Below, piece by piece: positions 19,921 through 56,155 of a stretch of DNA of 64,000 nt. The position numbers and the translations under genes are program-made. The stretch is from a bacterium (GTDB taxonomy: Bacteria > Hinthialibacterota > Hinthialibacteria > H5-UNCL2). Numbering within the stretch: position 1 is the first letter of the stretch; every line of letters begins with the position of its first letter. Under the pieces are notes generated by a model. That model was not told where the DNA came from. It saw nothing but the letters and a program-made list of their open reading frames with translations, and made no database searches. The stretch is from positions 186,001 through 250,000 of the forward strand of contig JABTUV010000005.1 in assembly GCA_015075175.1 (NCBI GenBank). The letters run 5' to 3'.

Positions 19921-19980
19921 GCCGTCCTCTCGATACGCCCGGAGTACCGGTTACTCGAGGACTCGGTTTCAGCTTTCTTG
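19921..19980 (+). repeat. Family A hairpin repeat, short form (A1)
   Basis: It reads GCCGTCCTCTCGATACGCCC then GGAGTACCGG and TTACTCGAGGACTCGG. The two outer thirds pair as a hairpin and a T-rich tail follows. One of eight copies in the window, all on this strand. Confidence 0.85.
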
Positions 19981-20057
19981 CGGCTACGCCTTATGAAACG
20001 GCGCCAGGGGACCTGGACGGGGCGGATGGCCTGCGCGAGGCGGGTCGCACGCGCCCC

Positions 20058-20086
20058 TTGACGCTTTTCGCCCCCTTGCCTAGTAT
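20058..20086 (+). promoter_or_regulatory. Sigma-70 promoter for the MBL-fold gene
   Basis: TTGACG (20058-20063), 17 bases, TAGTAT (20081-20086). The start codon is 54 bases downstream of the -10. Confidence 0.6.
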
Positions 20087-20140
20087 GAGCTTGTCGAACC
20101 AATCGGTCTCTTTTTTTTTGCAACACCACGGGAGGACAGC

Positions 20141-21064
20141 GTGCCATTCAAGTTCACGTTTCGTGGTGTGCGGGGGAGTTACGCGGTTCCCGGACCGTCA
20201 ACCCTTCGCGTGGGCGGCAACACCACCTGCCTGGAAGTGCGCGTGGAGGGCAACCTGATTCTGTTTGACGCGGGGACGGGGATCATCCAGGTGGGGCGGG
20301 AGGTCGCCGAGGAGCTGGCGGAGCGGCGCAAGACCCAGCCCGACGCGCGCGTGGTCGCCAGCATCTTCTTTTCCCACATGCATCACGACCACACGCAGGG
20401 CTTCCCTTTTTTCAAGCCGGTTTACTTTGAGACCAGCGAGCTGCATCTCTTCGGGCCGCGCATGATGAACACGGATTTCGGTTCCGGGCTGGCCACCGCG
20501 CTCTTGTCGCCGCTGTTTCCCGTGGAGCTGTCGGACATGCGGGCCGCCAAGCACATCCACAACATCTACGACACCGACGTAGTCGTCTATCCGCTCTCGG
20601 GCGAGGCGCCGGTGATGGTGAAGAACAAGAACGGGGCGGAAGAGTACGGGCCGGAGACGCCGCGGGTGCGCTGCTGCCACAGTTACGCCCATCCCAACGG
20701 GGGTTCGATGGTGTATCGCATCGAGTGGAACGGCAAGTCGGTGGTTTTTGCGACCGACGTGGAGGGTTACGTGGGCGGGGACCAGCGGCTGATTCATTTC
20801 GCCAAGGGGGCGGACGCGCTGATTCACGACGCGCAGTACGAAGAGAAGCGCTACTTCGGCTATCCCAATCCGGTGCAAGGTTTCGGGCACAGCACGCCGG
20901 AGATGGCGGCGCACGTGGCCCGCAGCGCGGGCGTGCGGCGGTTGTTTCTGCATCATCACGATCCGGAGAGCGACGATGAGCTGGTGGAGGCGATGGCGGA
21001 GCGCGCGCGCAAGTCGTTTCCCAATACTCAACCCGCGGTGGAGGGACTCACCATCGAGCTGTAG
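20141..21064 (+). CDS. Metallo-beta-lactamase-fold hydrolase (RNase Z/phosphodiesterase-like)
   Basis: 307 aa with GTG start behind GGGAGGACAGC. The dinuclear metal site is clear: FFSHMHHDHTQGFPFF (H-x-H-x-D-H), a later His in CHSYAHPNGGSMVYRI, the bridging Asp in VVFATDVEGYVGG and a final HHHDPESDD. The start VRGSYAVPGPSTLRVGGNT, with G-G-N-T-x-C, is typical of the stand-alone MBL group related to RNase Z and cyclic-nucleotide phosphodiesterases. The substrate cannot be read from the sequence. It has its own promoter and is followed by a family A and a family D repeat. Confidence 0.8.
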   Translation: MPFKFTFRGVRGSYAVPGPSTLRVGGNTTCLEVRVEGNLILFDAGTGIIQVGREVAEELAERRKTQPDARVVASIFFSHMHHDHTQGFPFFKPVYFETSELHLFGPRMMNTDFGSGLATALLSPLFPVELSDMRAAKHIHNIYDTDVVVYPLSGEAPVMVKNKNGAEEYGPETPRVRCCHSYAHPNGGSMVYRIEWNGKSVVFATDVEGYVGGDQRLIHFAKGADALIHDAQYEEKRYFGYPNPVQGFGHSTPEMAAHVARSAGVRRLFLHHHDPESDDELVEAMAERARKSFPNTQPAVEGLTIEL

Positions 21065-21154
21065 CGAGCCAGGGACAGTCTCTCATGAGGCTTCGCCTCA
21101 CCGGTAGAAGATAAAACACCGAGGCCGCTCCGAAGGCGGGTTGGCCGCATCCAA

Positions 21155-21313
21155 GCCGTCCTCTCGATACGCCGGAGTACCGGCTACTCGAGGACTCGGT
21201 TTTTGTTTCTCTTGCAACTCTGGCAAGGCCTGTTTTTAAGCGCAGTCACCCATTTCCGCCGCCGCGCCCCGCGCGGTCGGAGAGTTCTCCCTGCGGAAAT
21301 GGGTGACTGTCCC
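21155..21313 (+). repeat. Compound repeat: family A element (A2) joined to family D palindrome (D2)
   Basis: A2 (21155-21205) has the GCCGGAGTACCGGC hairpin tip. Its tail CTCTTGCAACTCTGGCA and TTTTTAAG runs straight into the D arm CAGTCACCCATTTCCGC (from 21243), and the other D arm ends at 21313. The same A-tail-D order is seen at 55907-56036. Confidence 0.85.
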
Positions 21314-21317
21314 TGAG

Positions 21318-22529
21318 TCAGCGCGTCCAGGCGTGGATGAAGGTCAGCGTATTCTGGGGGATGGCGACCTCCACGTCACGCGTAGCCGGATTGCCCTGGC
21401 TCATGTTGATGGTGGTGTCGTAGACGACCGGGTCGCCGTCCTGCGGGGTCAGCTGAATGCGCACCGGGATGTTGCCCTGTGGGACGAAGTCGCGCGCCTG
21501 CAGGGTGATGGTCTGGCTGGCGGAACTGCCCAGGGGCATGAAGATGCTGACCGCCTCGCCGGTCCCCTCCAGGATGGCGCGTCCCGCCACGCTGATGATG
21601 TCCAGGCGCGGCTGCGGGGTGGCGAAGGAGGCCATGTAGCTGCCGATGGAGACCACCGTGGTGGGCTGGTAGTCGAACGCGAGCTGGCTGCGGTAGATGG
21701 TGTCGATGCGGATGCGGCCGGCGCCGCCCTCGGTGTTGGTCCAGGAGGTGCGTCCGCCACGCACGTCCAGCGTACCCGTACCCGAAACGACGGGAGCCAC
21801 GCAACGGATCGCGCCGCCGCTGCCCTGGCCGCCGGAGACCAGGGACCCGCTTGTCCCGTCGTTATCTCCGCCGCGGGCGCGGATGGTTCCAAACACTTCC
21901 ACCTTGGTGTTGGAAGAGAGCAGAATAGCGCCGCCCCCGCCGGCCCCGCCGCGCCCCGGCTGGCCTGATGTTCCCCCTCCACCCGAGCCGCCGACCAGAG
22001 GGACGAGCAGCGCGCTGCCGTAGACCTCACCGTCCTTATCGGTGACGTGGTTCGTACGGCTGCCATAAGCTGCACTTCCTGCGCTGGAATTCTCGTAAGG
22101 CGGCGAGGGAGTGCCCCCCAGACCCGCGCCCGGGCCCTGTCCGGCGCCCGGCGCCACGCCCAGGATGCCCGGGGTACCGCCGTCAAACCCGCCCGGACCG
22201 CCCGCGCCCGCGACCGGCGGCGACGACGTGCCCGACTGGCCCGACACGTCGATGGTACCGTCGATGCGGATGTCGCCCGTCGCCAGGATATGCACGGGGG
22301 TGTTCAACACGTTACGGTTGAAGCGCAGCGTCCGCCCGGCTCGCACCGTCACGGTAGTGAAGTTAAAGATGCCGTTGGGAGGAACGTCCAGGATGGTGAG
22401 GGTGGTTACGTCGAGAATGCCGTCCGCTCCCGTGCTGCCCGAGTTGAAAGCCGGCTGCGCCGGCGCCGGCGGGGTCAACGCCAGACAGATTCCGGCCAGT
22501 CCAAACCATGCGAGTCTGCCGATGTTCAT
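21318..22529 (-). CDS. Secreted Gly-rich beta-structured protein
   Basis: 403 aa. A Sec signal peptide (MNIGRLAWFGLAGICLALTP, cut near APAQPAF) is followed by FNSGSTGADGILDVTTLTIL and then repeated short strands (ILATGDIRIDGTIDVSGQSG). The middle is Gly/Ser-rich. This style is common in surface proteins of Myxococcota and candidate phyla that begin with a beta-helix-like GDI-x-I-x-G-x-I. No enzyme motif is seen. It directly follows the repeat protein gene upstream on the same strand (the frames nearly touch at 22526-22529), so a two-gene unit is likely. Confidence 0.65.
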   Translation of the reverse strand: MNIGRLAWFGLAGICLALTPPAPAQPAFNSGSTGADGILDVTTLTILDVPPNGIFNFTTVTVRAGRTLRFNRNVLNTPVHILATGDIRIDGTIDVSGQSGTSSPPVAGAGGPGGFDGGTPGILGVAPGAGQGPGAGLGGTPSPPYENSSAGSAAYGSRTNHVTDKDGEVYGSALLVPLVGGSGGGGTSGQPGRGGAGGGGAILLSSNTKVEVFGTIRARGGDNDGTSGSLVSGGQGSGGAIRCVAPVVSGTGTLDVRGGRTSWTNTEGGAGRIRIDTIYRSQLAFDYQPTTVVSIGSYMASFATPQPRLDIISVAGRAILEGTGEAVSIFMPLGSSASQTITLQARDFVPQGNIPVRIQLTPQDGDPVVYDTTINMSQGNPATRDVEVAIPQNTLTFIHAWTR

Positions 22530-23353
22530 GCTCTTCTCCTCCTTCGCTCACTGAAAGCGTTGCTTACGGTCGGTCGTCGCGCCGCAGCACGGCCGCGTCG
22601 GCGACCGGCTTGCCGGACGTGTCGCGACGGATGCTGACCGGCGGTCGGGCTAACACGGTATTGCGCGGCAGCCGCTGGTTTGGCCAGGTCAGGGCGGACG
22701 ATGTCTGGAGGTTTGGCCACGACAGTATTGCGCGGCAGCCCGCCAGGTTTGGCCAGGTCAGGGCGGACGATGTCTACCGGAGGTTTGGCCACGACGGTAT
22801 TGCGCGGCAGGCCGCCGGTTTGGCCGAGATCGGGGCGGACGATGTCTACCGGAGGTTTGGCCACGACGGTATTGCGTGCCAAGCCGCCGGTTTGGCCGAG
22901 ATCGGGGCGGACGATGTCTACCGGAGGTTTGGCCACGACGGTATTGCGTGCCAAGCCGCCGGTTTGGCCGAGATCGGGGCGGACGATGTCGATGGGCGGG
23001 CGGGCGACCACGGTGTTAAACGGCAGGCCGCCGGTATCGCCGAACTCGGGCAGCACGATCTCGACCGGCGTGCCCGTCCCGCCGCCCGCCATGTAGAAGC
23101 GGCGTTGCGTGACGCCCGCCCAGTGGTACGAGAGGCAGAGCACGTCCCAGTAGTTCACCAGACCGTCCAGGTTGTAGTCGGCGACCTGCTTGGTACGCCA
23201 GTCGAAATAGAGGGTCCAGAAGTCGGCCTCGGCCTGAGCGAAGGAGACCGGTGCCCAGCTCAGGCAAAAAAAGGCCGTCAGCCCGAGGCATAGCGGGTGC
23301 CAAGAATGGGCGCAGGGCCGGATGATATTGCGACTGAGTGTCTCTGGCCTCAT
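22526..23353 (-). CDS. Secreted protein with 24-residue tandem repeats and a half dockerin
   Basis: A signal peptide (CLGLTAFFCLSWAPVSFAQ) is followed by one Ca-loop helix pair (VADYNLDGLVNYWDVLCLSY), half of a dockerin. Then come five or six near-identical 24-aa units with the core DIVRPDLGQTGGL and RNTVVAKPPV (72-bp DNA period, about 22670-23030). The last unit is damaged: one V is lost, then a shift at about 22675 turns the tail into Arg-rich nonsense. In the neighbouring frame the natural end reads LPRNTVLARPPVSIRRDTSG and stops at 22564. The true gene therefore probably ends at 22564. Function unknown; a flexible surface stalk is a guess. Confidence 0.6.
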   Translation of the reverse strand: MRPETLSRNIIRPCAHSWHPLCLGLTAFFCLSWAPVSFAQAEADFWTLYFDWRTKQVADYNLDGLVNYWDVLCLSYHWAGVTQRRFYMAGGGTGTPVEIVLPEFGDTGGLPFNTVVARPPIDIVRPDLGQTGGLARNTVVAKPPVDIVRPDLGQTGGLARNTVVAKPPVDIVRPDLGQTGGLPRNTVVAKPPVDIVRPDLAKPGGLPRNTVVAKPPDIVRPDLAKPAAAAQYRVSPTAGQHPSRHVRQAGRRRGRAAARRPTVSNAFSERRRRRA

Positions 23354-23770
23354 GTTACGCGGCCCCGTCGTGTCTGTACCTGGTACTTGGGAAGCGAAAA
23401 GAGGGAAAAACGCGACTCACTGCGGCCAATGCCGCTGACAAGGGAATTGGATATTACAATAGGCGGTACGTTAATGCAAGTCAATTTGCAATTGATTCTC
23501 AACAATTTTCTTGGGGGCGGTAGTTGCGCAGCGTGCTGCGCGCGCCGGCAAGCTGGCGCAGTCCATACTTCCAGTCCGGAGGGTTGCCACAACTTCTTGA
23601 TTTGGGGCAAGTTATCCTATTTCTTGACAATCCGGAGCGGGTTTTCTAGAGTATGGTTTAGTGGCCGAGGCGGCCGATCGAGTTCATCCCCTTAACACGT
23701 CGCAGGAGTCGGAGGATCCGGACCGCGGCCAACGCCCTTAGCCGCGGCCGGTATGCGGAGGCGCCATCCC
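23354..23770. promoter_or_regulatory. Spacer upstream of accB: family C repeat and promoter
   Basis: No gene was seen. A family C copy lies at 23521-23541 and extends into GCGCCGGCAAGCTGGCGCAG (23540-23559). The accB promoter is at 23624-23652. A leader of about 118 bases then runs to the accB start. Confidence 0.6.
23624..23652 (+). promoter_or_regulatory. Sigma-70 promoter of accB-accC
   Basis: TTGACA (23624-23629), a perfect -35, is followed by a 17-base spacer and TAGAGT (23647-23652). Confidence 0.75.
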
Positions 23771-24214
23771 ATGGACCTGGAGCAGATCAAGCGGTTGATC
23801 GACCTTCTCCTGGAGTCGCAGATTACCGAGATCGAGGTCGAGGAGGAGGGGACGCGCATCCGGGTGAGCCGGCAGGCGTCGGTGCAACAAGTGGTTGCGG
23901 CGGCGCCCGGCGCGCCCGCGCCGGGCTTCGCGCCCATGAGCATCACCCCGGCTCCCGGGGTCGAGGAGAGTCCCTTCCAACTCATCAAGGCGCCCATGGT
24001 GGGCACGTTCTACCGCGCCCCCTCTCCGGACGCCGTGCCCTACGTGAAGATCGGCGACGAGGTCCATCCTGAAACCGTGGTTTGCATCCTGGAAGCCATG
24101 AAGATCATGAACGAGCTGAAGGCGGGCGTGTCGGGGGTCGTGCGCAACATCCTGGTGGAAAACGGCGAAGCGGTGGAATACGGGCAGCCGCTGTTCGAGA
24201 TCGAGCCGCGCTGA
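23771..24214 (+). CDS. accB: Biotin carboxyl carrier protein of acetyl-CoA carboxylase
   Basis: AccB carries the biotin that AccC carboxylates in the first step of fatty-acid synthesis. The start is taken at 23771 ([13 protein letters not shown]); six codons upstream are also open. The N-terminal helix and [14 protein letters not shown] are typical, then an Ala/Pro linker, then the biotinyl domain with [14 protein letters not shown], where the Lys of E-A-M-K-M-x-N receives biotin. 147 aa is normal for the family. accC follows after 5 bases. Confidence 0.93.
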
Positions 24215-24219
24215 CGGCC

Positions 24220-25570
<1,351 letters not shown>

Positions 25571-25660
25571 GAAAATTAGGGTTAGCGCCTATTTTTCCGC
25601 AGAACATCCGGAGGGTTGGACAGGCTGACACGGAAAAATAGGCGCTGACCCTAATTTTCC
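25571..25660. repeat. Family D palindrome directly after accC (D3)
   Basis: 90 bases with 30-base arms that match at 29 positions: GGAAAATTAGGGTTAGCGCC at the left end and its complement at the right end, loop about 30 bases. It begins at the base after the accC stop. Confidence 0.9.
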
Positions 25661-25675
25661 CTCGAGGAGGTCGAA

Positions 25676-26068
25676 ATGGTCTGTTACTACGAAACCGAGC
25701 TGGGGCGAGTGTACATCGGGGCGGACATCGTGCGGGCGGTGATCGCGCCGGAGATCGCCAAGTCGCGCTACTTCCGTCCGATGAACTACGTGGTCGCCGA
25801 CAAACCGGAAGAACAGGACCTGCGGCAGCTGGAGCGGGGCATCCAGGTCGAGTCGGAGGACGGGCGGGTGGTGGCCAAGGTGCACGTGGAGGCGCAGTAC
25901 GGGATACCCATCAACAAGGAGGCGGAGGCGCTGGCGGGGGACATCCGGCAGGCGCTGAAGGTGTCGACGGGGCTGGAGGTCGCCAACCTGATCGTAAACG
26001 TGGACGGGGTGTATCCGGCGCCGAGCGAGCCGAACGCGCGCAAGGCGCGCCGGGGAGGCCGGCGATGA
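25676..26068 (+). CDS. Asp23/Gls24 family protein
   Basis: 130 aa with VYIGADIVRAVIAPEIAKS at the start and IPINKEAEALAGDIRQALKV near the end, the usual landmarks of the alkaline-shock Asp23 family. In Firmicutes Asp23 is a membrane-associated protein anchored by AmaP, and the next gene here encodes AmaP, overlapping by 4 bases (ATGA). This strongly supports the assignment. A strong ribosome site (GAGGAGG) stands before the ATG. The biochemical role is unknown even in model bacteria; a role in envelope stress is inferred. Confidence 0.8.
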   Translation: MVCYYETELGRVYIGADIVRAVIAPEIAKSRYFRPMNYVVADKPEEQDLRQLERGIQVESEDGRVVAKVHVEAQYGIPINKEAEALAGDIRQALKVSTGLEVANLIVNVDGVYPAPSEPNARKARRGGRR

Positions 26069-26697: not shown

Positions 26698-26790
26698 GCG
26701 AAAAATGGGGTCAGCGCCTATTTTTCCCCACCAGGCCACCCATAAGCGTCAGTACTGATTGGAAAAATAGGCGCTGACCCTATTTTTCGC
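26698..26790. repeat. Family D palindrome directly after amaP (D4)
   Basis: Left arm GCGAAAAATGGGGTCAGCGC continues to TATTTTTCC; the right arm GGAAAAATAGGCGCTGACCC ends in TATTTTTCGC (26761-26790). It begins at the base after the amaP stop and ends 10 bases before the gatC start, so the gatC ribosome site (AGGGG) immediately follows it. Confidence 0.9.
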
Positions 26791-28609: not shown

Positions 28610-28648
28610 GGTTCCGAAGCCGCGTCAAGCAACATCGTCGCTATCCCT

Positions 28649-28790
28649 CGTCCTCTCGATACGCGGCCCGAAGATACAGCTTGCCTTTGCGCGAAGTCCC
28701 CGGCGGGCCGCTACTGGAGGACTCGGTTTTTTCCCTTTATCGTAAGCTCTCAAGAACTCGGTCTTACTTTCTTGCGAGGGACCTGAGCGA
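28649..28790 (+). repeat. Family A hairpin repeat, long form (A3), with a degenerate second unit
   Basis: CGTCCTCTCGATACGCGGCC opens the left arm; GGGCCGCTACTGGAGGACTC is the right. The arm tip is GCGGCCCG/CGGGCCGC. After a T-rich tail the end is repeated once in decayed form (CTCTCAAGAACTCGGTCTTA). Confidence 0.8.
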
Positions 28791-34664: not shown

Positions 34665-34990
34665 ACGCGGAGGCCGCTCCGAAGGCGGGCCGGCCGCATC
34701 GAGGCCGTCCTCTCGATACGCGGCCCGTAGTTACATCACGCATCAAGGCGAAGATCTCGTCGGGCCGCTACTCGAGGACACGGTTTTTCTTTCTTTCGGG
34801 ACTACTGGAGGACACGGTTTTTCTTTCTTTCGGGACCACTGGAGGACACGGTTTTTCTTTCTTTCGGGACTACTGGAGGACACGGTTTTTCTTTCTATCG
34901 GGACTACTGGAGGACACGGTTTTTCTTTCTTTCGGGAGTACTGGAGGACACGGTTTTTCTTTTTCTTGGACCTACACATCAGCGGGTGTT
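34665..34990 (+). repeat. Family A hairpin repeat (A4) with six 34-bp tandem units
   Basis: The hairpin part is 34704-34785 (left GCCGTCCTCTCGATACGCGG, right GGGCCGCTACTCGAGGACAC). The end GAGGACACGGTTTTTCTTTC then repeats at 34774, 34808, 34842, 34876, 34910 and 34944, exactly 34 bases apart and nearly identical. It fills the gap between two converging genes. No gene was seen. Confidence 0.95.
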
Positions 34991-38088: not shown

Positions 38089-39350
38089 AGCAAGGCCCCG
38101 TGGTGGAACTGGTGGCCATCGGCAGTGAACTCCTGGGTCCGACGCGGGTGGACACGGATGCCCTGACGCTGGCGCGGGCGCTGGAGGGGCTGGGATTGGC
38201 GCTGTCGCGCAAGACGACGGTTGCGGACCGGCCCGAGCCTTTGCGGGTGGTGCTGTGCGAGGCCATCGCGCGCGCCGACCTCTTGATGACGACCGGCGGG
38301 CTGGGGCCGACCGTGGACGACCTGACGCGGCAGATACTCTCCGAGTGCACGGGCATTCCGTTGCGCTACGAGCCCAAGGTCGAGCGGGCGATTCGCGCGC
38401 GATTCGCCGAACGGCGCATCGAAATGCCGGAGAACAACCTCGTGCAGGCCTGGGTTCCCGAGCGGGGGCGCTGGTTTCCCAATCACTTCGGGACCGCGCC
38501 CGGGCTGGTGTTTGAGCCGGAAGGGAAGCTGATCGTGGCGCTGCCGGGTCCGCCGCGCGAGCTGGAGCCGATGCTGGAGCGGTATCTCCTCCCGCTCCTG
38601 GAGGAGCGGTTCGCCCAGGAGGAGCGGGTGCTGTCGAAAGAACTGCACACGGCGCATGTCTCCGAATCGTGGGTGGACGCAACGCTGCGGGGGGCCTTGT
38701 CGGGGTTCGCGGACGTGGAGGTGTCGATGCTGGCGCGGCCCGGCTACGTGGACGTGTGGTTGTCGCGGCGCGTGCCCAGGGGCGCGGCGACGGATGAGCG
38801 GCTGCGGGCCGCGCACGCGGCGGCGCGCGCGGCGCTCTCGCCCCACGTCTATTCCGACGGCGAGGAGACCCTGCCGATGGCGGTGGGTCGCCGGCTGCGC
38901 GAGGCGGGCAAGAGGCTGGCCGTCGCCGAGAGTTGCACCGGCGGGCTGATCGGCGCGGCCATCACGGAAGTCCCCGGCAGCAGCCAGTACTTTCTGGCAG
39001 GGCTGTGCACGTATGCCAACGAGGCGAAGTTGCGGTTTTTGGGGGTGCCGGAGGCGCTCCTGGTCGAGCACGGGGCGGTGAGCGGGGCGGTCGCGGAGGC
39101 GATGGCGCGGGGGGTCCGCGCGGCGACGGGCGCGGATTACGCTCTCGCCACCACCGGCATCGCCGGCCCGGGCGGGGGCACGGCGGAGAAGCCGGTGGGA
39201 CTGGTCTATATCGCCGTCGCCGATGCGGAGCGCTGCCTGGTGGAAGAAGTGCACTTCGGGGGTGGGCGGGAGGTCGTGCGGCAGCGGGCGGTAGCGGCGG
39301 CGCTGGACATACTGCGGCGGTTCATCATGCCGTTTCAAGAGAAGTTGTAG
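38085..39350 (+). CDS. cinA: CinA, nicotinamide-nucleotide amidase/ADP-ribose pyrophosphatase-like
   Basis: 421 aa, the usual two-domain length. The GTG start overlaps the pgpA stop (GTGA). The N-terminal MoCF-like domain has VELVAIGSELLGPTRVDTDA and LLMTTGGLGPTVDDLTRQIL. The C-terminal amidase domain has AVAESCTGGLIGAAITEVPG and ALATTGIAGPGGGTAEKPVG. CinA recycles NMN and is often near recA. Here thpR follows, an order often seen (recA is absent from the window). Confidence 0.92.
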   Translation: MKQGPVVELVAIGSELLGPTRVDTDALTLARALEGLGLALSRKTTVADRPEPLRVVLCEAIARADLLMTTGGLGPTVDDLTRQILSECTGIPLRYEPKVERAIRARFAERRIEMPENNLVQAWVPERGRWFPNHFGTAPGLVFEPEGKLIVALPGPPRELEPMLERYLLPLLEERFAQEERVLSKELHTAHVSESWVDATLRGALSGFADVEVSMLARPGYVDVWLSRRVPRGAATDERLRAAHAAARAALSPHVYSDGEETLPMAVGRRLREAGKRLAVAESCTGGLIGAAITEVPGSSQYFLAGLCTYANEAKLRFLGVPEALLVEHGAVSGAVAEAMARGVRAATGADYALATTGIAGPGGGTAEKPVGLVYIAVADAERCLVEEVHFGGGREVVRQRAVAAALDILRRFIMPFQEKL

Positions 39351-39641
39351 CGAGCCGGCCGTCCTCTCGATACGCCGGAGTACCGGCTACTCGAGGACTC
39401 GGTTTGTGCTTTTTCGTAAGTACTCGAGGACTCGGTTTGTGCTTTTTCGTAAGTACTCGAGGACTCGGTTTGTGGTTGCTCGCAAGTACTCGAGGACTCG
39501 GTTGGTGGTTGCTCGCAAGTATGCGAGGACTCGGTTTGTGGTTTCTCGCAAGTACTCGAGGACTCGGATTCTGCTTACCGAATGTGTCCGAGGACTCGGA
39601 TTGTCTTTGGTCGCCAACACGTTTTGGGAAACGTCAATCGC
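39351..39641 (+). repeat. Family A hairpin repeat (A5) with seven 33-bp tandem units
   Basis: The hairpin (GTCCTCTCGATACGCCGGAG, 39361-39380, with GGCTACTCGAGGACTCGG) ends in units that start CGAGGACTCGG. These fall at 39392, 39425, 39458, 39491, 39524, 39557 and 39589 (33-bp period, last step 32). The tail of each unit drifts stepwise: GTGCTTTTTCGTAAG, then GTGGTTGCTCGCAAG, then GTGGTTTCTCGCAAG. The array runs up to 26 bases before thpR. Confidence 0.95.
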
Positions 39642-41773: not shown

Positions 41774-43143
41774 ATGGGCGGCATGGACCGGTCGGTAGTA
41801 CGTGAAATCGAGTATCCCGCCGAGCCGCTGGCGCCGTTCCGGCGACTGGCGGGGTTGCCGCACGCGATGGCTCTCCACTCGGCGCGCACGGACCTGCCTT
41901 TTGCGCGCTACAGCTACTTTTCCGCCGAACCCTGCGCGACGCTCCGGCTGGATCACGCCGGGCGATGGAACGCGACCGGGCTTGCCAGGCGGGATCTGCC
42001 GGACGATCCGTTGCGAGTGCTGGAGCGCCTCCTGGGAGAGGGGCGGGCGGAACCGGGGCCGTTCCGGGGCGGATGGGTGGGCTACCTGGCCTACGAGCTG
42101 GCGGGATACATCGATGGCCTGCCGCGCCATGCGCGGCCTGAGCCGCGCACGGCGCTTCTATGGTTGGGATATTACGATGCGGTCGTAGTCCTGGACCATC
42201 ACGCGGCGGGGTGGGTAGTGATCCGTAGCCGCGGGTGGAGAGGATGGCGGAGTGGTTGCGGGAGGGGGCCTGCAGTCAGATGGGACCTATGGGACGTATG
42301 GGACCCATGGGACCGATAGAGATGGAGCAGTCGCGGGAGTTTTACTACTCGAGGCTGGCGGCGATCCGGGAGCATCTCTGGGCGGGGGACATCTACCAGG
42401 CGAACTACACGCAGCGGGTGCGCGTGGAGGGGCGGTTTTCGTCGGCGGGGCTTTTTGCGGCGATGGCGGCGCGCAATGCTGCGCCGTTTTCGGCCTACCT
42501 GGACTGCGGCGACCACGCCATCGTCTCCGCTTCGCCGGAGCTGTTTCTTGACTTCGACGGCACGACGGCGACGACGCGGCCCATCAAGGGCACGCGCCCG
42601 CGGGGCCGGACGCCGGAAGAAGACGCGCGGCTGGCCGCGGAACTCTCCGCCAGCCCCAAGGACCTGGCCGAGCACCTGATGATCGTGGACCTGGAGCGCA
42701 ACGATCTGGGGCGGGTTTGCGCGGCGGGGAGCGTGCGCGCGTATGACATGCTCTCGGTTGAGAGTTACGCCTCCGTGCACCACCTGGTTTCGTCGGTGCG
42801 AGGCCGATTGCCGGCGGATCGCGGGTCGGCGGAGCTGTTGCGGGCGCTGTTTCCGGGCGGGTCGGTGACGGGGGCGCCGCGCCGGCGGGCCATGCAGATC
42901 ATCGCCGAGCTGGAGCCGTGCCCGCGCGGCGTTTATACCGGCTGTATCGGCTGGCTTGACGATTCGGGGCGGATGCAGTGGAATATCGCCATCCGCACGC
43001 TGGTCGTCACGCCGGAGGAGGTGTGTTTTCACGTGGGGGGAGGGATCGTGTGGGATAGCGATCCCGAGGCGGAGTACGAGGAGTGCCGGGCCAAGGCGGC
43101 GGGACTATTGTGGAGCCTGGAGACGCACGAGTACGATTCTTAA
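41774..43143 (+). CDS. pabB: Aminodeoxychorismate/anthranilate synthase component I (PabB-like), one frameshift
   Basis: The N-terminal part (41774 to about 42235) has FARYSYFSAEPCATLRLDH and GGWVGYLAYELAGYIDGLP. The catalytic part in the next frame (from about 42235) has HLWAGDIYQANYTQRV, ASPELFLDFDG, RPIKGTRPRGRTPEEDA, HLMIVDLERNDLGRVC, FPGGSVTGAPRRRAMQI and TGCIGWLDDSGRMQWNIAIR. These are the chorismate-binding signatures; PIKGTRPR with its Lys is usual in PabB. The frame changes within about 10 bases of 42235. Just after it the linker contains an inserted decamer repeat read as QMGPMGRMGPMGPI. pabC follows, supporting folate (p-aminobenzoate) synthesis. The amidotransferase PabA is not in the window. 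Confidence 0.85.
42279..42319 (+). repeat. Decamer repeat (family F) inserted in pabB
   Basis: Four decamers, ATGGGACCTATGGGACGTAT then GGGACCCATGGGACCGAT. They are in frame in pabB and give Met-Gly-Pro/Arg repeats in the linker between the two halves of the protein. Confidence 0.85.
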
Positions 43144-43327: not shown

Positions 43328-44236
43328 GTGGGGGCGGTCGAGGTGATTGTTTGCCTCAACGGTGGGTTGATCCCCGAGGGGGAGGCGGTGCTGGGGGCGA
43401 CGCATCCCGGGCTATTGTTGGGCGCGGGAGTGTTCGAGACGCTGCGGGCGGTGTGGGGGGTGGGGTTTCTCTTGGAGCGGCATTACGCGCGGCTGGCGGC
43501 GGGGGCGGAGCGGATCGGAACGAGCGTCCCCTTCGGGTTGGAGGAGCTGGCCGAGTACGTTCGGCAGCTGGGGGAAGTCAACCGGTGCGAGGAGGGGCGG
43601 GTGCGGATCACGCTGGTGCGAGGGCGGGAAGGGGAGGGGGAGGCGCGGGCGGACTTCGTCATCCAAGTTTCGCCGTTGGGACCGCAACCGGCGGGTTGGC
43701 GGGCGACGTGCGCGGCTGCCGGAAGGGCGGCGCACAGTCCGCTGGCCGGCGTCAAGTCCACCAGTTACCTCGACTACCTGCTCCTGCGCGAGGGGGCGGT
43801 GCGGCAGGGCTTCCAGGAGGCGCTGCTGTTGGACGAACGCGGGCGGCTGGTGGAGGGGGCCGCCAGCAACGTGTTTCTGGTGCAACACGGGCGGATTGCA
43901 ACGCCCGAGGAGCGAACCGGCCTGTTGCCGGGCATCACGCGCGGGTTTCTCTTGGAGAACCTGGCCGGCTGGGGTTGGTCCGTGCGCGAGGCGACGTTGT
44001 CGCTGGCCGACCTGGAGGCGGCGGACGAAGTCTTCTGCAGCAACGCGGTAGTGGGGGTGATGCCGGTCAGCCACGTCGAAGGCAAGGCGCTGGGGAGTTT
44101 GTCGGCGGGTTCGATCTCGCGCCAGGTCGCGGCGGCGTATCGGCAGGCGCGGGAGGATTACGTGGAGGCGGCGCGTGGAGGGGAGGGGCGTCCGCCCTGT
44201 CAGGCCGGGGAGAGTAAGATCGTATGGGACGGATAG
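43328..44236 (+). CDS. pabC: Aminodeoxychorismate lyase (PabC-like, PLP fold-type IV)
   Basis: 302 aa by the GTG at 43328; GTG at 43340 (VIVCLNGGLIPEGEAVL) is an equal candidate. The PLP lysine is in LAGVKSTSYLDYLLLREGA, whose K-S-x-x-Y-L-x-x-L form is typical of PabC. The cofactor-pocket Glu is in LVEGAASNVFLVQHGR; LLPGITRGFLLE follows. PabC splits aminodeoxychorismate to p-aminobenzoate and pyruvate. Placement after pabB makes this the best PabC of the two class IV enzymes here. The last codons (IVWDG) lie inside a decamer repeat that also gives the stop. Confidence 0.82.
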   Translation: MGAVEVIVCLNGGLIPEGEAVLGATHPGLLLGAGVFETLRAVWGVGFLLERHYARLAAGAERIGTSVPFGLEELAEYVRQLGEVNRCEEGRVRITLVRGREGEGEARADFVIQVSPLGPQPAGWRATCAAAGRAAHSPLAGVKSTSYLDYLLLREGAVRQGFQEALLLDERGRLVEGAASNVFLVQHGRIATPEERTGLLPGITRGFLLENLAGWGWSVREATLSLADLEAADEVFCSNAVVGVMPVSHVEGKALGSLSAGSISRQVAAAYRQAREDYVEAARGGEGRPPCQAGESKIVWDG

Positions 44237-44262
44237 GGCGTATGGGACGTATGGGACGCGAG
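44223..44262 (+). repeat. Decamer repeat (family F) at the pabC end
   Basis: TATGGGACGGATAGGGCGTA then TGGGACGTATGGGACG. It supplies the last codons and TAG stop of pabC. Confidence 0.8.
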
Positions 44263-49684: not shown

Positions 49685-50215
49685 GACGAAGGCTCCTGAG
49701 TCGAGGTCAGGGCGGGAAGATAGACGAGGGAAGGCGGCCTGTCCATGCCCAAGGGCGCGGGGTAGTCGCCGTGCCTCTCGATACGGCCCCGAAGATAGAT
49801 TTCTCTTCTCATGGGGATGCGACGGCGGGGCCTACTCGAGGACACGGCTTGGGTTTTATACATCAAAGGGGCCTCTGCGGACACGGCTTGGTTTACATGG
49901 GTGTCAAGTCGCCGTGCCTCTCGATACGGCCCCGAAGGTAGATTTCTCTTCTCATGGGGGTGCGACGGCGGGGCCTACTCGAGGACACGGCTTGGGTTTT
50001 ACACATCAAAGGGGCCTACTGGTGGACACGGCTCTGTTTTGCGTGTATCGACAATTGAGGAAGCGGCTTGGTTTTGCTGCTGGGACCTATGAGACCTATG
50101 AGACCTACCTAGGTCCCATTGCCTCGCCCTGCAAGCGCGCAAGGGTCTCGACTTGCGGCGGGCGGCGGGTTACGATCCGCCCATCGAGTCGCATCTTCCA
50201 GGCAAGGAAAGAGGC
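49685..50215 (+). repeat. Duplicated family A element (A6) and family F copy between divergent genes
   Basis: A 143-base stretch (49768-49910, GCCGTGCCTCTCGATACGGC at its start) is repeated next to itself from 49911 with few changes. The hairpin tip here is CGGCCCCG/CGGGGCC, different from other copies but paired. Decayed ends (GTGGACACGGCTCTGTTTTG, GAGGAAGCGGCTTGGTTTTG) follow to 50080. Then a family F copy, TGGGACCTATGAGACCTATG (50086-50105). No gene was seen. Confidence 0.85.
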
Positions 50216-51186
50216 ATGGAGCGGACGCTGGTGACGGGGCGGGGCTTTATCGGCAGCCACCTGGTGGAGGCGCGTGGCGCGCGCGCGGGCGGCGGGTGCG
50301 CGCCATGGTGCACTACAACTCGCGCAACAGCTGGGGCTGGCTGGAAGGCTCCAGCGTTCTTTCTCAAATCGAAGTCGTAGCCGGCGACGTGCGCGACTAC
50401 GATTCGGTCGCCGCAGGCATGAAGGATTGCCGCGAGGTCTTCCACCTGGCAGCGCTCATCGGCATTCCGTATTCTTACGAGTCGCCGCTGGGCTACGTGC
50501 GGACCAACGTGGAGGGACGTGCCACGTCTTGTCGGCAGCGCACGCGCTGGGGCTGAGAGGGTGGTGGTGACGTCCACGAGCAGAAGTGTACAGGACGGCG
50601 GAGAGCGTGCCCTGAGGGAAACGCACCCGCTCTCAGCGCAGTCGCCCTACGCGGCCAGCAAGATCGGGGGGACCAGCTGGCGCTGGCGTTTCATCGCTCG
50701 TTCGGGCTGCCGGTGTACGTAGTGCGTCCGTTCAACGTTTACAGCCCCAGGCAGTCGGCGCGGGCCGTGATCCCCACCATGCTGGCGCAGATGGTCGCGG
50801 GGCGAAGGACGCTCTCGCTGGGCAACCTGTCGCCGCGGCGCGATTTCACCTTCGTGCGCGACACGGTGGAGGGCTTTCTGGCCATTGCCGAGAGTCCCGA
50901 GCTGTGCGGGCGCGTGACGCATATTTGCAGCGGGAAGGAAATCTCGGTGGGGGAGCTGGCGCAGTTGATCGGGGAGCTGTGCGGCGTCCCGATCGACATT
51001 CGCCGCGAGGCGGAGCGCGCGCGGCCCGAGGGCAGCGAGGTGGAGCGGCTGTGCGGCGATCCGGGGCTGATCTTCGCGCATACGTCGTGGCGGCCGCGCG
51101 TGCCGCTGCGCGAGGGACTGGCGGAGACGCTGGCGTGGATGAAAGAACACCGCGAGCTCTACAAGCCGGACTTTTACAGCAAGTGA
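50216..51186 (+). pseudogene. NAD-dependent sugar-nucleotide dehydratase/epimerase (LegB-like), several frameshifts
   Basis: Start 50216 behind AAGGAAAGAGG: ERTLVTGRGFIGSHLVEA, lacking one or two residues of the G-x-x-G-x-x-G loop. In the next frame RVRAMVHYNSRNSWGWLEGS, EVVAGDVRDYDSVAAGMKDC and HLAALIGIPYSYESPLGYVR are the hallmarks of the LegB-type branch of the extended SDR family, which dehydrates UDP-GlcNAc derivatives at C4/C6. Later SPYAASKIG holds the Y-x-x-x-K. From about 50713 the frame is clean to the end (YVVRPFNVYSPRQSARAVIP). At least three shifts lie in 50230-50700. The next gene is a sugar nucleotidyltransferase. Confidence 0.65.
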
Positions 51187-51195
51187 GGCGCAGGG

Positions 51196-51897
51196 ATGCA
51201 GGCGATACTCCTGGTGGGCGGCAAGGGAACGCGACTGCTTCCCTACACGGCGGTTTTTCCCAAGTCGCTCATGCCCATCGGCGATCTGCCGATCCTGGAG
51301 GTGGTGGTGCGACAGCTGCGGCGGGAGGGGTTCTCGCGCCTGGTCTTCGCCGTGGGACATCAGCACGAGATGTTCCGCGCGTTTTTCGGGGACGGGGGCA
51401 AGTGGGGGTTGTCGATCACGTACAGCCTGGAGGATGAGCCGCTGGGGACGGCGGGGCCGTTGCGGCTGATCCCGGAACTGGACGAGAATTTTCTCATGCT
51501 CAACGGAGACGTTCTGACCGACCTTTCGTTCGGCGAGCTGTATCGCCTGCACTGCGCGGGCGGGCATGCGGCGACCATCGCCACGGCGCGGCGCCAGGTG
51601 GCCATCGACTACGGCACGCTGGAGTTCGATGCGGCGTCGCGGCTTGTATCCTACCGAGAAAAGCCGGTGCTGGCGTATCACGTGAGCATGGGCGTATATG
51701 CGCTTTCGCGCTCGGTGGTGGAGCTGGTTCCCGAGAAGCGGCGGTTTGATTTTCCCGAGCTGGTCGCCGCGCTCCTCGCCGCCGGGCGGCGGGTGTACTG
51801 CCATCGCTACGACGGTTACTGGCGGGACATCGGGCGGGGGGAGGATTACGCGCGGGCGATCGAGGAGTTCGAGGAGATGAGGGAAAGGCTGGTGTAG
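51196..51897 (+). CDS. Sugar-1-phosphate nucleotidyltransferase
   Basis: 233 aa: MQAILLVGGKGTRLLPYTAV followed by PKSLMPIGDLPILEVVVRQL (G-G-x-G-T-R-L and P-K) and NFLMLNGDVLTDLSFGELY, the nucleotide- and metal-binding motifs of the NTP-transferase family. YRYDGYW-like HRYDGYWRDIGRGEDYARA ends the fold (W-x-D-I-G). It forms NDP-sugars; whether it uses GTP, CTP or UTP is not readable. It lies 9 bases after the dehydratase gene, so both probably serve one deoxysugar pathway. Confidence 0.8.
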   Translation: MQAILLVGGKGTRLLPYTAVFPKSLMPIGDLPILEVVVRQLRREGFSRLVFAVGHQHEMFRAFFGDGGKWGLSITYSLEDEPLGTAGPLRLIPELDENFLMLNGDVLTDLSFGELYRLHCAGGHAATIATARRQVAIDYGTLEFDAASRLVSYREKPVLAYHVSMGVYALSRSVVELVPEKRRFDFPELVAALLAAGRRVYCHRYDGYWRDIGRGEDYARAIEEFEEMRERLV

Positions 51898-51916
51898 GGC
51901 GAGCGGGCGCGTCCAT

Positions 51917-52015
51917 GCCGTCCTCTCGATACACGGCGCGAAGTTACATCTCGCATCGATGCACGCAGCTCGTCGGGCCGCTACTCGAGGACTCGGTTTT
52001 TCCTTTTTTCGGGAC
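51917..52015 (+). repeat. Family A hairpin repeat, long form (A7)
   Basis: GCCGTCCTCTCGATACACGG at the left, TCGGGCCGCTACTCGAGGAC at the right, then a T-rich tail. It comes 20 bases after the stop of the nucleotidyltransferase. Confidence 0.85.
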
Positions 52016-52072
52016 GCTCCATGCCAGTCGCGTTTTCAAAGCGGGCGCGCATTTGCGAAGCGGGTTGCGGGT

Positions 52073-53425
52073 TTATTGGTGGGAGGGAGGCGGAAATGGG
52101 TGAGTGTCCCCGGCTTTTTCGCGCATGGCCTGGCAGTCGTTCAGCCAGGTGGTGATTTTGTCGCGCAGGCTGCGCGCCTTCGCCGGCTCCTGAGCGGAGA
52201 GGTTGCGCGTCTCGCCCGGGTCGATGGCAAGGTTGAAGAGGCGGGCCGATTCGCGATCGTCTTCGCGCTCCAGGATCAATTTCCATCCTTCCGCTTGCAC
52301 CGAATAGAACACGTGCGTGACGTTCTCGGGGTCAGGCTCCAGGTAGCCGTAGTTGGAGGTCGCCGCAAAGGCGACGCGATCCGGACCGCCCGCGGGGTCC
52401 TGCCACGTGGATGACAGCGACTCGCCTTGAAAATATTCCGGCGGGGCGATTCCCAGGAGCTCGAAGACGGTCGGCATGACGTCGATGGCGCGCACCTGCG
52501 TTTCGACGGTAACCCCCTCGGGCAGCACTCCCGGCAGAGACAGAATCAGGGGGACGTGGAGCACGGCGTTGTAGAGCGTGCCCGCCAAGAGGGTCGTGGT
52601 ATGGCCGACGTAGTCGTGGTCCAGGAGGCCCTCGCCGTGGTCGGCGGAGAAAACGACCAGCGTGCGCTCGGAGAGGGCCGCCGCTTCGAGGGCGTCCAGA
52701 ATCCGGCCCAGCTTCTCGTCGATGGTGCGAACCTCGCCGTCGTAGAGCGCGCGGATGGGCGGGCCGTCGCGCTCGGGGAAGAAGTTGATCGAGTTGCGGG
52801 GAAGTAGATTCCGGCGCATCACGAGGTCGATGCGCCACTTGGAGTCCGGTCCTGTAATCAGCGAGTCGTCCCAGAAGAGCGAGCGATGAGGCTGGGGCGG
52901 ATCATAGGGTAGATGCGATTCGTAGAGATGATACCACATGAAGAAGGGGCGGTCCTTGTGGGCGGCGATCCAGTCCCAGGGGGGGGCGTTGTTGACGGTT
53001 GACTCCGTGTAGCCGAGGTCGCGATGGGCGATCTGCTCGGGCTGCTGGTAGTCGGTCATGCGGGGGATGAGATAGCCGCGTTCGGCGAGGATTTTGAAGG
53101 GAGTTTTCCAGGCGGCGGGAACGGCGCGGTCGCGCGTGATGACGCCGTGGGCGGGGGAGTAAAGGGAGAGGAAGTTGGAAATCATGCTCTCGGTAGTCCA
53201 GGAGGAGGCGGAGAAGGCGCGGCGCCAGAGGACGCCGCGTGCGGCGAGGGCGTCGATGCGGGGGCTGGTGGGTTTGTCGTAGCCGTAGCAGCCGAGATGG
53301 TCGGGCCGCAGGCTTTCGCCGGTCAACCAGAGGACGTTGTAGGGGGTCGCCGAGGCGGCGCCGTGCGCGCCGAGGGCGGCCAGGTGCGCACACGCCAACC
53401 CGAGCACCACGCGCCATCGGCCCAT
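52073..53425 (-). CDS. Secreted sulfatase/phosphatase-superfamily hydrolase
   Basis: 450 aa with signal peptide (VLGLACAHLAALGAHGAASA). The alkaline-phosphatase fold is clear: NVLWLTGESLRPDHLGCYGY, FSASSWTTESMISNFLSLYS, TLVVFSADHGEGLLDHDYVG and HVPLILSLPGVLP. At the nucleophile site the formylglycine motif C/S-x-P-x-R is absent; the aligned residue is Thr in S-S-W-T-T. This matches the W-T-x-P-S subgroup whose members need no formylglycine, so true sulfatase activity is doubtful. The last dozen residues (KAGDTHPFPPPSHQ) are encoded by a family D arm. Confidence 0.75.
   Translation of the reverse strand: MGRWRVVLGLACAHLAALGAHGAASATPYNVLWLTGESLRPDHLGCYGYDKPTSPRIDALAARGVLWRRAFSASSWTTESMISNFLSLYSPAHGVITRDRAVPAAWKTPFKILAERGYLIPRMTDYQQPEQIAHRDLGYTESTVNNAPPWDWIAAHKDRPFFMWYHLYESHLPYDPPQPHRSLFWDDSLITGPDSKWRIDLVMRRNLLPRNSINFFPERDGPPIRALYDGEVRTIDEKLGRILDALEAAALSERTLVVFSADHGEGLLDHDYVGHTTTLLAGTLYNAVLHVPLILSLPGVLPEGVTVETQVRAIDVMPTVFELLGIAPPEYFQGESLSSTWQDPAGGPDRVAFAATSNYGYLEPDPENVTHVFYSVQAEGWKLILEREDDRESARLFNLAIDPGETRNLSAQEPAKARSLRDKITTWLNDCQAMREKAGDTHPFPPPSHQ
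52090..52110. repeat. Solo arm of family D (D7) inside the sulfatase-like gene end
   Basis: GCGGAAATGGGTGAGTGTCC then CC matches the right arm only. No left arm is found within 100 bases. Confidence 0.75.
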
Positions 53426-53535
53426 CAGTCAGTCCTTCCATCGTGCTTGACGGCTTTGTGATAGCCGGGTCGCGGGATGGTTGTCAACCCTACGGAGCCT
53501 GGCTCGCCCCAATAAGGGGCACGGCGCGTGACGCG

Positions 53536-53580
53536 ATGGGACCTATAGGGCGCATGGGACCCATAGGACGGATGGGAGGT
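53536..53580 (+). repeat. Decamer repeat (family F)
   Basis: ATGGGACCTATAGGGCGCAT then GGGACCCATAGGACGGATGG, about four decamers, in the spacer between the divergent sulfatase-like and GMD-like genes. Confidence 0.75.
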
Positions 53581-53684
53581 GGATCGGCGGGCGGCGGTGT
53601 ACCGCGGGCCTGTCGGCTTGACAGCGGCGAGTGGGATGTTTAATGGTTAGACGCAAGTCCCACATTGAGCATTCAGGAGAGAGC

Positions 53685-54680
53685 ATGGCCGGTACGAAGT
53701 CCAGGACGGTTCTCATCACGGGCATTTCCGGCCAGGACGGCAGCTACCTGTGCGAGCGGCTGGTGGAACGCGGGGAGCGGGTGGTGGGACTGGTCGCGCG
53801 GGCGCAGGATCGGCTTCCCCCTTATTTGGAGGAGTACCTGGGGGCGCTGCCGGGACGGGAGGCGGTGCGACTCGTGTCCGGGGACGTGACGGAGGCGGCG
53901 CTGTTCGGGGCGCTGTTGTCGGACGTCAAGCCCGACTGGGTCTTCCATCTGGCGGCGGTTTCCAGCGTGGCGCAGAGTTTTTCCGCGCCGCTGCTTGCCG
54001 CAGAGGTCAACGGGGTAGCGACCATGCGGCTCTTGGAGGCGGTGCGACTGGTAGCACCTGAGGCGCGCGTATTCCTGGCGATCTCGGGCGAGGTGTTCGG
54101 GCCGCGCACCACCCCCGCCGACGAAACCTGCGATTTTTCCCCCGGCAACCCCTACGCGGCCAGCAAGGCCTTCGCTTACTGGAGCGGCGTGAACTTCCGC
54201 GAGAGTTACGATTTGTTTATCTGCAACGGCATTTTCTTCAACCACGAGTCGCCGCGGCGGCCGCCGGGCTTTGTCACGCGCAAGGTAGTGCGGGGGGCGG
54301 TCGAGATCGCGGCCGGCAAGCGGCAGCGACTGGCGCTGGGCAATCTGGAGCCGGTGCGCGACTGGGGCTATGCACCCGAGTACATGGACGCGGCGGTGCG
54401 CATGTTGGAGGCCGACCGGCCGGGCGATTACGTGATTGCGACGGGCGAAGGCCACTCGGTGCGCGAGTTGGTCTCGGCCGTGTTCGAGGCGGTGGGGCTG
54501 GACTACACCCGATGCGTGGAGGAGGGCGCGGAGAGCCTGCGTCCCTCCGACCTGGCCTGGATGGTGGGCAATCCCGCGAAGATCGAGCGCGAGTTGGGCT
54601 GGAAGGCCGAGACGCGATTCAACCGACTGGTGGAGATCCTCGTGCAGGCCGAGCTGGCGGCGGGGGGGGCGGCGGCATGA
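53685..54680 (+). CDS. GDP-mannose 4,6-dehydratase-like protein
   Basis: 331 aa from ATG 53685 behind [28 protein letters not shown] is the GMD-type NAD(P) loop. Then [31 protein letters not shown] (Y-x-x-x-K) and [20 protein letters not shown] (GMD hallmark N-H-E-S-P-R-R). The active-site Ser/Thr of [ST]-S-E is replaced by SGE. The second GMD-like gene overlaps its end by 4 bases. GMD begins synthesis of GDP-fucose, GDP-rhamnose and related sugars; having two unlike copies suggests different products. Confidence 0.8.
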
Positions 54681-55655
54681 AGACGGTACTGGTGACGGGC
54701 GTCACGGGGCAGGACGGCTCCTATCTGGCGGAGATGCTGGTGGCGGAGGGCTGTCGGGTGGTGGGGCTGGTGCGTCGCAGCAGCGTGCCGAACACGTGGC
54801 GGATCGATCATCTGATTTACGGGGAGGCGGGCAAGGAGAGGCGCTTCATCCTGGAAGAGGCCGACCTCTGCGACGATCTGTCGCTGTATCGCGTGCTGGA
54901 GCAATACCAGCCGGTGGAGCTTTATAACATGGGGGCGCAGAGCCACGTGGCGAGCAGTTTCAAGATACCCGACTACACGGCGGACGCGACGGGTCTGGCG
55001 CCGCTGCGGCTGTTGGAGGGCATCCGGAGGCTGGGGCTGGCGTGCCGGTTTTACCAGGCCAGTTCGAGCGAGATGTTCGGCAAGGTGCGGGAGACGCCGC
55101 AGCGTGAGACCACGCCCTTCCATCCGCGCAGTCCCTACGGGGTCGCCAAGGTGTTCGCGCACCACGTCACGCGGGTGTATCGGGAGAACTACGGGATGTT
55201 CGCGTGCTCGGGGATACTCTTTAATCATGAGTCGCCGCGGCGGGGAGACCCGTGACGCGCAAGATCTTGGGGCGGCGCGGATCGTGGCGGGACTGTCGGA
55301 TAACCTGACGCTGGGCAACCTGGAGGCGCGGCGCGACTGGGGGTTTGCGGGCGACTACATGCAGGCGGTAGTGAAGATGATGCGGGCGCCCGAGCCGCGG
55401 GATTACGTGATCGCGACGGGCGAGACGCATTCGGTGCAGGAGTTTGTGGAAGAGGTGTTCGCGCGGGCCGGTCTGGACCCGAAGAAATGGGTGCGCACGG
55501 ATCCGCGTTTCCTGCGGCCGGCGGAGGTAGACATGCTGGTGGGCGACGCCTCGCGCGCCAAGGCGGAGTTGGGCTGGGAGGCGAAGGTGCGCTACCGGGA
55601 GCTGGCGGCGATGATGCTGGAGGCGGACCTCTTGCGAGTCAAGCGGGAGAGATAG
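54677..55655 (+). CDS. gmd: Second GDP-mannose 4,6-dehydratase-like protein, frameshift near 55245
   Basis: ATG overlaps the previous stop. [49 protein letters not shown] (canonical GMD), [20 protein letters not shown] (S-S-E) and [20 protein letters not shown] are all typical. After FNHESPRRG the frame breaks (stop at 55253-55255) and continues as [20 protein letters not shown] and [20 protein letters not shown] to 55655. The lost piece is the usual E-T-F-V-T-R-K-I. At least two small indels lie within 55240-55275. This copy is closer to true Gmd than the first. Confidence 0.8.
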
Positions 55656-55665
55656 GCGGGGCGTC

Positions 55666-55866
55666 ATGCGAACCCATCGGGTCATCGATGATCGGTTCAT
55701 GTCCCGCGCGCTGAAGTCCGGCGGATATCGCACGCAGAAGTCGGCCGTGGAGGCCGGACTGCGCCACTTGGTTCAACTGCACCAGCAGGGCCGGTTGCGG
55801 CGGTTGCGGGGCAAGGTGGGCTGGGAAGGCGACTTGGAAGAGATGCGGCGGGACAGTGGGGGATGA
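55666..55866 (+). CDS. VapB-like (DUF2191) antitoxin
   Basis: 66 aa: MRTHRVIDDRFMSRALKSGG, then AVEAGLRHLVQLHQQ and RLRGKVGWEGDLEEMRR. This is the standard VapB pattern (M-R-T-x-x-x-I-D-D, then L-R-G-K-V-x-W-E-G-D-L). The partner PIN toxin VapC would be expected just downstream but the next 290 bases are repeats. It is therefore an orphan. Confidence 0.85.
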   Translation: MRTHRVIDDRFMSRALKSGGYRTQKSAVEAGLRHLVQLHQQGRLRRLRGKVGWEGDLEEMRRDSGG

Positions 55867-56155
55867 GAAGCCAAGGTCGCTGTGAAGGCGGGCCGGGCGC
55901 GTTCCTGCCGTCCTCTCGATACGTCGGAGTACCGGCTACTCGAGGACGCGGTTTTTTTCTCTTGCAACTCTGGCAGGGCGCATTTTTAAGAGCAGTCACC
56001 GACTTCCGGCAAGGGTGCTCCAATCAACCGGAAGATTGGCTTGGGAAATCGGCGCCAGTCCTTGGCGCGAGGGACAGGCACCCGTTTCCGAAGGGAGTTG
56101 CGCGCATGGTAGCGAGGCGGGCGGCGGAAACGGGTGACTGACCCGCGCGGGGCGG
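55867..56155 (+). repeat. Family A element (A8), family D half (D8) and complete family D (D9)
   Basis: A8 is 55907-55990 (GCCGTCCTCTCGATACGTCG, GGAGTACCGGCTACTCGAGG, tail CTCTTGCAACTCTGGCA). The D8 arm AGCAGTCACCGACTTCCGG starts at 55991 with a poor partner near 56020. D9 has left arm GGGACAGGCACCCGTTTCCG (56070-56089) and right arm CGGAAACGGGTGACTGACCC (56125-56144). D9 ends 11 bases from the stop of the next, convergent gene. Confidence 0.85.

Follow-up and report, generated by a model that had tools for sequence, protein, structure and literature searches.

What is the short hairpin that recurs between genes in the 64 kb stretch C45:186001-250000 (the window, on contig C45 of a 4.98 Mb, 49-contig, 84% complete assembly), and why do all of its copies there point the same way? 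A preliminary description of the window had reported a dispersed plus-strand hairpin with paired changes in its stems, and had suggested a terminator or 3'-end RNA role. We show that this hairpin family is real and structurally constrained. Our preferred reading, to which we give a probability of roughly 0.58, is that it is a non-autonomous interspersed element comparable to repetitive extragenic palindromes (REPs) and bacterial interspersed mosaic elements (BIMEs), acting as folded single-stranded DNA (ssDNA) and spread during replication by a putative enzyme provided in trans.

All copies follow a common plan, consisting of an outer stem, an asymmetric internal loop (left TCGATAC, right TACTC) and then an inner stem ending in a variable tip, and three main classes (A, B and C) and a small class D are built on it. 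The outer stem is CCTC/GAGG, TCTC/GAGA, CCCC/GGGG or TCCC/GGGA, the inner stem comes in about thirteen sequence types with a tip loop of either about 4 or about 33 nt, and the internal loop is invariant between these variable stems. The first G of the inner stem is equally invariant (46/46 distinct sequences), and the reverse strand gives GTA plus G, inside the internal loop. Of the 33 positions in the long loop, about 8-9 depart from the consensus, and the loop has one length per stem class, a few copies having a long loop of another length; a test for structure within the 33-nt loop found no covariation.

The inner arms pair as had been claimed, with stem changes paired far above shuffled and slid controls. 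In the 46 distinct sequences, 94.2% of cells were paired (74.3% when shuffled), the outer helix reaching 99.5%, and 86 cells were altered on both sides, against 34.5 in shuffles. The covariation score was 0.532, compared with 0.185 for shuffled sequences and at most 0.146 when partners were slid by 1-3 columns. In copies selected by nothing but their flanks, inner pairs 2-4 were Watson-Crick in 94-97% and inner pair 7 in 92%, versus about 41-50% and 49%, respectively, after redealing the right halves. An alternative inner-register fold (CTCGA/TCGAG) was rejected: it pairs, but its outer part is without covariation and its score is lower (0.332 versus 0.532).

The further step from compensatory change to selection held less well. 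Paired change is evident; an independent compensatory series is not, the changes being mostly exchanges of whole tips between otherwise similar scaffolds, with only two paired cells changed on a single side relative to the most common pair (against the 86 altered on both) and four cells being G-U. Stems change as blocks, because the short tip and each of the long tips can occur in one and the same type I scaffold (see below); accordingly, independent events are far fewer than cells, and neutral correction of palindromes becomes possible. The pairing evidence is thus strong, yet partly non-independent. Selection is better supported by the TCGATAC/TACTC loop itself, a mismatch retained in three phyla between differing stems.

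A covariance model was built from the 46 distinct sequences, all found elsewhere in the genome and none taken from the window, although sequences identical to window copies are among them. It recovered nine window copies, all on the plus strand (E 7e-12 to 7e-7), and matched nothing else there; every locus reported earlier was present at its position. The left box, the 13-mer GTCCTCTCGATAC, is exact at 19924, 21158, 28650, 34707, 39361, 51920 and 55910, and both copies at 49772 and 49915 carry the variant TGCCTCTCGATAC; the right box is ACTCGAGGAC in all copies but that at 28650, which has ACTGGAGGAC. Seven exact occurrences of the 13-mer per 64 kb are far above chance; searched alone at three mismatches, it shows no enrichment in the window (19 versus 15.4 in shuffles). 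Larger scaffolds of at least two kinds, type I and type II, carry the dispersed core hairpin, and the features are as follows.

19922..19968, plus strand: core copy within a degenerate type II scaffold, its short tip being CCCGG-AGTA-CCGG(T) (cmsearch 41.9 bits, E 4.9e-8; flanks inspected)
21087..21112, plus strand: bracket of the type I scaffold, GAGGCTTCGCCTCACCGGTAGAAGAT, lying upstream of the 21156 copy (bracket-only search, alignment)
21156..21201, plus strand: core copy in a type I scaffold, its short tip being GCCGG-AGTA-CCGGC (cmsearch 57.7 bits, E 7e-12)
28648..28728, plus strand: core copy antisense to the genes on either side, with long tip GCGGCCCG...CGGGCCGC (cmsearch 39.4 bits, E 2e-7)
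34705..34785, plus strand: core copy with long tip and type I leader, grouping with type I (cmsearch 47.1 bits, E 2.7e-9)
34768..34962, plus strand: tandem array, 5.7 x 34 bp, the unit being right box, right outer arm and T-rich tail (Tandem Repeats Finder)
39329..39352, plus strand: type II left terminal inverted repeat GCCGTTTCAAGAGAAGTTGTAGCG (terminal inverted repeat searches)
39359..39404, plus strand: core copy in a type II scaffold, its short tip being GCCGG-AGTA-CCGGC (cmsearch 57.7 bits, E 7e-12)
39388..39608, plus strand: tandem array, 6.8 x 33 bp, same kind of unit as in the 34768..34962 array (Tandem Repeats Finder)
49769..49849, plus strand: class B core copy with long tip GGCCCCG...CGGGGCC (cmsearch 51.2 bits, E 2.7e-10)
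49912..49992, plus strand: class B core copy, duplicating 49769..49849 locally (cmsearch 51.2 bits, E 2.7e-10)
51918..51998, plus strand: core copy with long tip, between a convergent gene pair (cmsearch 37.2 bits, E 7e-7)
55908..55953, plus strand: core copy with short tip GTCGG-AGTA-CCGGC, between a convergent gene pair (cmsearch 50.1 bits, E 5e-10)

The uniform orientation holds within the window and not in the genome as a whole, where a strict pattern found 75 copies, 54 on the contig plus strand and 21 on the minus (reversed-pattern control, 0), a looser one found 164 (control, 0), and the covariance model found at least 150 on both strands. Neither is orientation random: single copies are co-oriented with GC skew in 35 of 41 cases for type I and 18 of 21 for type II. 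Head-to-head dimers, co-oriented in 9 of 23, have no polarity. With skew taken over 20 kb on each side, class A copies split 55 to 11 (plus to minus) in regions with a G-rich plus strand, and 14 to 25 in those with a C-rich one (Fisher p 1.4e-6; p 1.6e-4 with C45 excluded). This effect was stable across the interval sizes and thresholds tried with all contigs in, and without C45 its significance was lost at the highest threshold alone, which left five copies. On contig C47, skew and class A orientation both switch near 100 kb; orientation in classes B and D by themselves was mostly not significant. A logit analysis gave z 4.2 for skew sign and z -2.2 for gene strand, and gene sense does not explain copy orientation. 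The tendency of single copies to point with the skew explains why those in the window are all plus. C45 itself has a strong skew switch (-0.22 to +0.18), a candidate origin, at about 20-45 kb.

These results bear directly on the suggested RNA role, according to which the hairpins would be intrinsic terminators or 3'-end stabilisers selected on transcripts from the element's plus strand. Five window copies do lie downstream of plus-strand genes (ends at 21064, 34664, 39350, 51897 and 55655, gene positions here and throughout being our own calls from open reading frames, with no curated annotation), that at 39359..39404 starting about 10 bp past the gene end, but four of the five are inside convergent intervals. 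Class A has the G+C-rich stem followed by a T-run expected of a terminator, and some copies lie 10-40 bp past gene ends. Copies of classes A to D were intergenic in 143/143 cases (1.28 Mb sampled), and class A, with 34 copies between converging, 11 between diverging and 47 between unidirectional genes (n=92), is over-represented in convergent intervals (34/92 versus 17.7% of intergenic bases). However, classes A and B together show no preference for sense between unidirectional genes (32 sense, 32 antisense), the logit effect of gene strand is weakly negative where that of skew is strong, G-U pairs are almost missing, which is unusual for a helix selected as RNA, and the tails of classes B and D are poor U-tracts. 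Transcript termination therefore does not account for the placement of the copies, and we consider an RNA element unlikely; terminator activity is possible as a side effect.

A site linked to replication or segregation, selected for its orientation in the replichore like other polarised motifs and without any insertion-biased mobility, would account for the identical polarity in two unrelated scaffolds, and for the better conservation of the core: in type I, identity is 0.93-0.96 in the core boxes and 0.73-0.82 in leader and tail, in a set that also needed a loose left-box match, so that a small bias is possible. Against it, pattern counts in 13 genomes of the same class are at background, dimers lack polarity, and the nested and tandem copies resemble mobile DNA. 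We regard it as improbable.

The compound forms are varied. Head-to-head dimers are frequent in the genome, contributing 23 dimer copies to the orientation test. Type II elements chosen by their outer arms only keep the core in 18/18. The type II consensus has two CTACT direct repeats spaced 33, equal to the 33-bp unit of the 39388..39608 array, and because of this match the right-half tandem arrays likely arose by replication slippage between short direct repeats. At three loci (L010 4561, L011 13217 and L062 9062), a longer copy has a class D hairpin nested in its left box, at an identical point each time (TCTCGATA / TCCCTCGATACGG...), possibly a record of one element inserted into another.

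The scaffolds raise the alternative that these are ordinary miniature inverted-repeat transposable elements, double-stranded DNA that DDE transposases mobilise by its outer inverted repeats, the hairpin core being a passenger. Type II is suggestive in this respect: about 115 bp long, it has ends CTAGYGCCGTTTC...GAAACGGCRCTAG with long terminal inverted repeats, similarity stops at these ends, and about 32 elements occur genome-wide, 20 of them with both ends at a spacing of 84-86 bp. The ends of type I are similar to GGGACAG..CTGTCCC repeats. But one core sits in different scaffolds here and in other scaffolds in other phyla, and double-stranded transposition predicts no replication polarity. 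A search for an autonomous partner, a longer element ending as type II does, found none; 40 of 52 ends pair at 84-86 bp, the other 12 being without a partner within three mismatches. We find this explanation quite improbable. Finally, template-switch repair of quasi-palindromes, which is linked to replication, could perfect arms in blocks without G-T intermediates and without selection, but it is a very improbable cause, as it should also erase the mismatched internal loop, which is invariant in three phyla, and it accounts for pairing and not for dispersal.

Outside the class, six of 148 sampled Actinomycetes carry at least 14 exact copies each (control, 0), one of them (G137) reaching 221 with a slightly wider pattern, in regular alternating arrays. 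In G137 the outer stem around TCGATAC/TACTC is GGTC/GACC in 74/75. Among Bacteroidota, G002 has 15 pattern matches, with outer stems CCTC/GAGG and GGTC/GACC, and G105 has 11, with 4 control matches, and the outer stem TCTC/GAGA, the loop being the same as here in both. The model from this genome matches the actinomycete and Bacteroidota copies at E 2e-5 to 0.07. When 84,980 species genomes, and also viral contigs, were scanned for the pattern, the matches listed were mostly lone, a few Bacteroidota contigs being the exception among them. The fold in some Actinomycetes and Bacteroidota may reflect common descent, transfer or convergence.

On our preferred reading of a REP/BIME-like element acting as ssDNA, the object recognised would be the internal loop TCGATAC/TACTC between two stems, which would be free to vary provided that they pair. 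The strand with TCGATAC...TACTC and the T-rich tail would be exposed on the lagging-strand template and fold there, and an enzyme that acts on ssDNA, provided in trans, would then copy or insert it. In favour of this reading are the dispersal between genes at high copy number, the paired fold with its few one-sided changes, the skew polarity, the presence of the fold in other phyla, and a head-to-head arrangement and convergent bias like those of known REPs.

Several points weigh against this reading. Polarity is established in one genome, skew being weak in actinomycete G137, and skew is a proxy for replication direction, the G-rich strand, usually taken as the leading one, being assumed to be so; dnaA is not at the C45 skew switch but on C12. 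The stretches of the genome examined were mostly picked for holding copies. Movement is deduced from dispersal, because the closest genomes compared belong to the same class and offered no empty site or target duplication. No longer element shares the type II ends. Lastly, the genome, at 84% completeness, has two Y1 transposase (PF01797) genes, and no hairpin copy lies within 1.5 kb of either; PF01797 is found in 0/6 actinomycete carriers.

A REP-associated tyrosine transposase (RAYT) was rejected as the driver, since no Y1 gene was found adjoining the hairpin in this genome, five Bacteroidota or six actinomycetes; of the Y1 genes examined in the Bacteroidota none is flanked by it, and at Bacteroidota locus L228, two copies about 1.3 kb from a Y1 gene were judged not to be flanking. 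The spreading enzyme is probably not of the Y1/RAYT family, at least in the actinomycete carriers. Seven genes that have copies on either side look ordinary, with no transposase seen by eye, no family search having been made.

The two Y1 genes have repeats of their own. At L069 (G000:C46:236562-239888) a RAYT-like Y1 gene has inverted GGAAAATTAGGGTCAGCGCCTAATTTT pairs on both sides (1127-1213 and 1888-1973), a separate repeat family. At L070 (G000:C5:15037-18246) the second lies between GGAGTACAAACTTYAGTTTG repeats accompanied by inverted counterparts (1062-1275 and 1928-2151), and a repeat of this kind occurs again near 12.9 kb in L015.

RAYT transposases are the usual explanation for REP repeats. 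A REP-like fold present in three phyla, polarised in the one testable genome and found in six carriers lacking RAYT, points either to a second ssDNA-mobilising enzyme or to persistence and folding without one, and both alternatives are directly testable in culturable actinomycetes. Tentatively, and with more doubt than confidence, we propose a cross-phylum class of ssDNA repeats set by the TCGATAC/TACTC loop and not by a GTAG foot, coupled to the fork and served by an enzyme family unrelated to Y1/RAYT. A caution also follows for other bacterial repeats, in which paired stem changes may stem from block replacement and not from stepwise selection.

The window contains other repeats as well: a 17-bp tandem array CGAAATGACAGTTGATC of 7.6 units (10025-10154), with similar CGAAATGACAG repeats at L023 and L038; an array of TAAGAT-type units (17637-17737), with similar AAGATTAAG strings elsewhere in the genome (L039); a 72-bp unit repeated 5.8 times (22655-23068), overlapping a predicted reading frame; and dispersed short ATGGGACCTATGAGACC-like repeats (42280-42314, 44221-44258, 50084-50107 and 53530-53577).

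Consistent with the preliminary description, which knew of no family with this consensus, the hairpin was not found in the literature searched, and Rfam gave 0 matches at gathering score in the window, with one chance match (E 4.1) near 21.2 kb. Integron attC sites consist of a stem, an unpaired spacer, a stem and a tip of variable length, and fold strand-specifically. The hairpin shares this layout, but it has no RYYYAAC/GTTRRRY boxes (its outer arms are CCTC/GAGG and similar) and no gene cassettes, and its copies are scattered intergenic singles or dimers. In the IS200/IS605 family, hairpin recognition and coupling to the lagging strand would yield an orientation bias like that seen here in two scaffolds, for which skew serves as proxy, whereas our repeat has no transposase and no pair of left and right ends. 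An 18-nt REP-like repeat of Caldithrix abyssi is also an intergenic palindrome, with variants said to favour one half of the chromosome, and a replichore preference was proposed for it, but it differs in sequence and is a simple palindrome without an invariant internal loop (PMC5317091). REPIN/RAYT (TnpA_REP) REPtrons likewise comprise inverted hairpin pairs that are scattered as non-autonomous ssDNA elements, and irregularity of the stem is known to be required in the REP of E. coli (PMC3116915, PMC6006769, PMC8266576); they differ in having a cognate Y1, whereas both local Y1 genes adjoin other repeats and the six actinomycete carriers have none. The nearest kind are the GTAG-tagged REPs/BIMEs, small intergenic palindromes of 20-40 bp, associated with the 3' ends of genes, that form head-to-head dimers (Di Nocera et al. 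2013, PMC3733652), in a study whose main text makes no mention of Actinobacteria. Here, GTAG lies inside the internal loop between two stems and not in a free foot, the Bacteroidota copies are without it, and no RAYT gene was found beside the repeat. Both are nevertheless short palindromes with many intergenic copies, mostly between converging or unidirectional genes, and with sub-families that differ by complementary stem changes; both form head-to-head dimers with GTAG outward, accompanied in G137 by alternating arrays, and the reverse strand of our hairpin reads GAGTAG followed by the stem.

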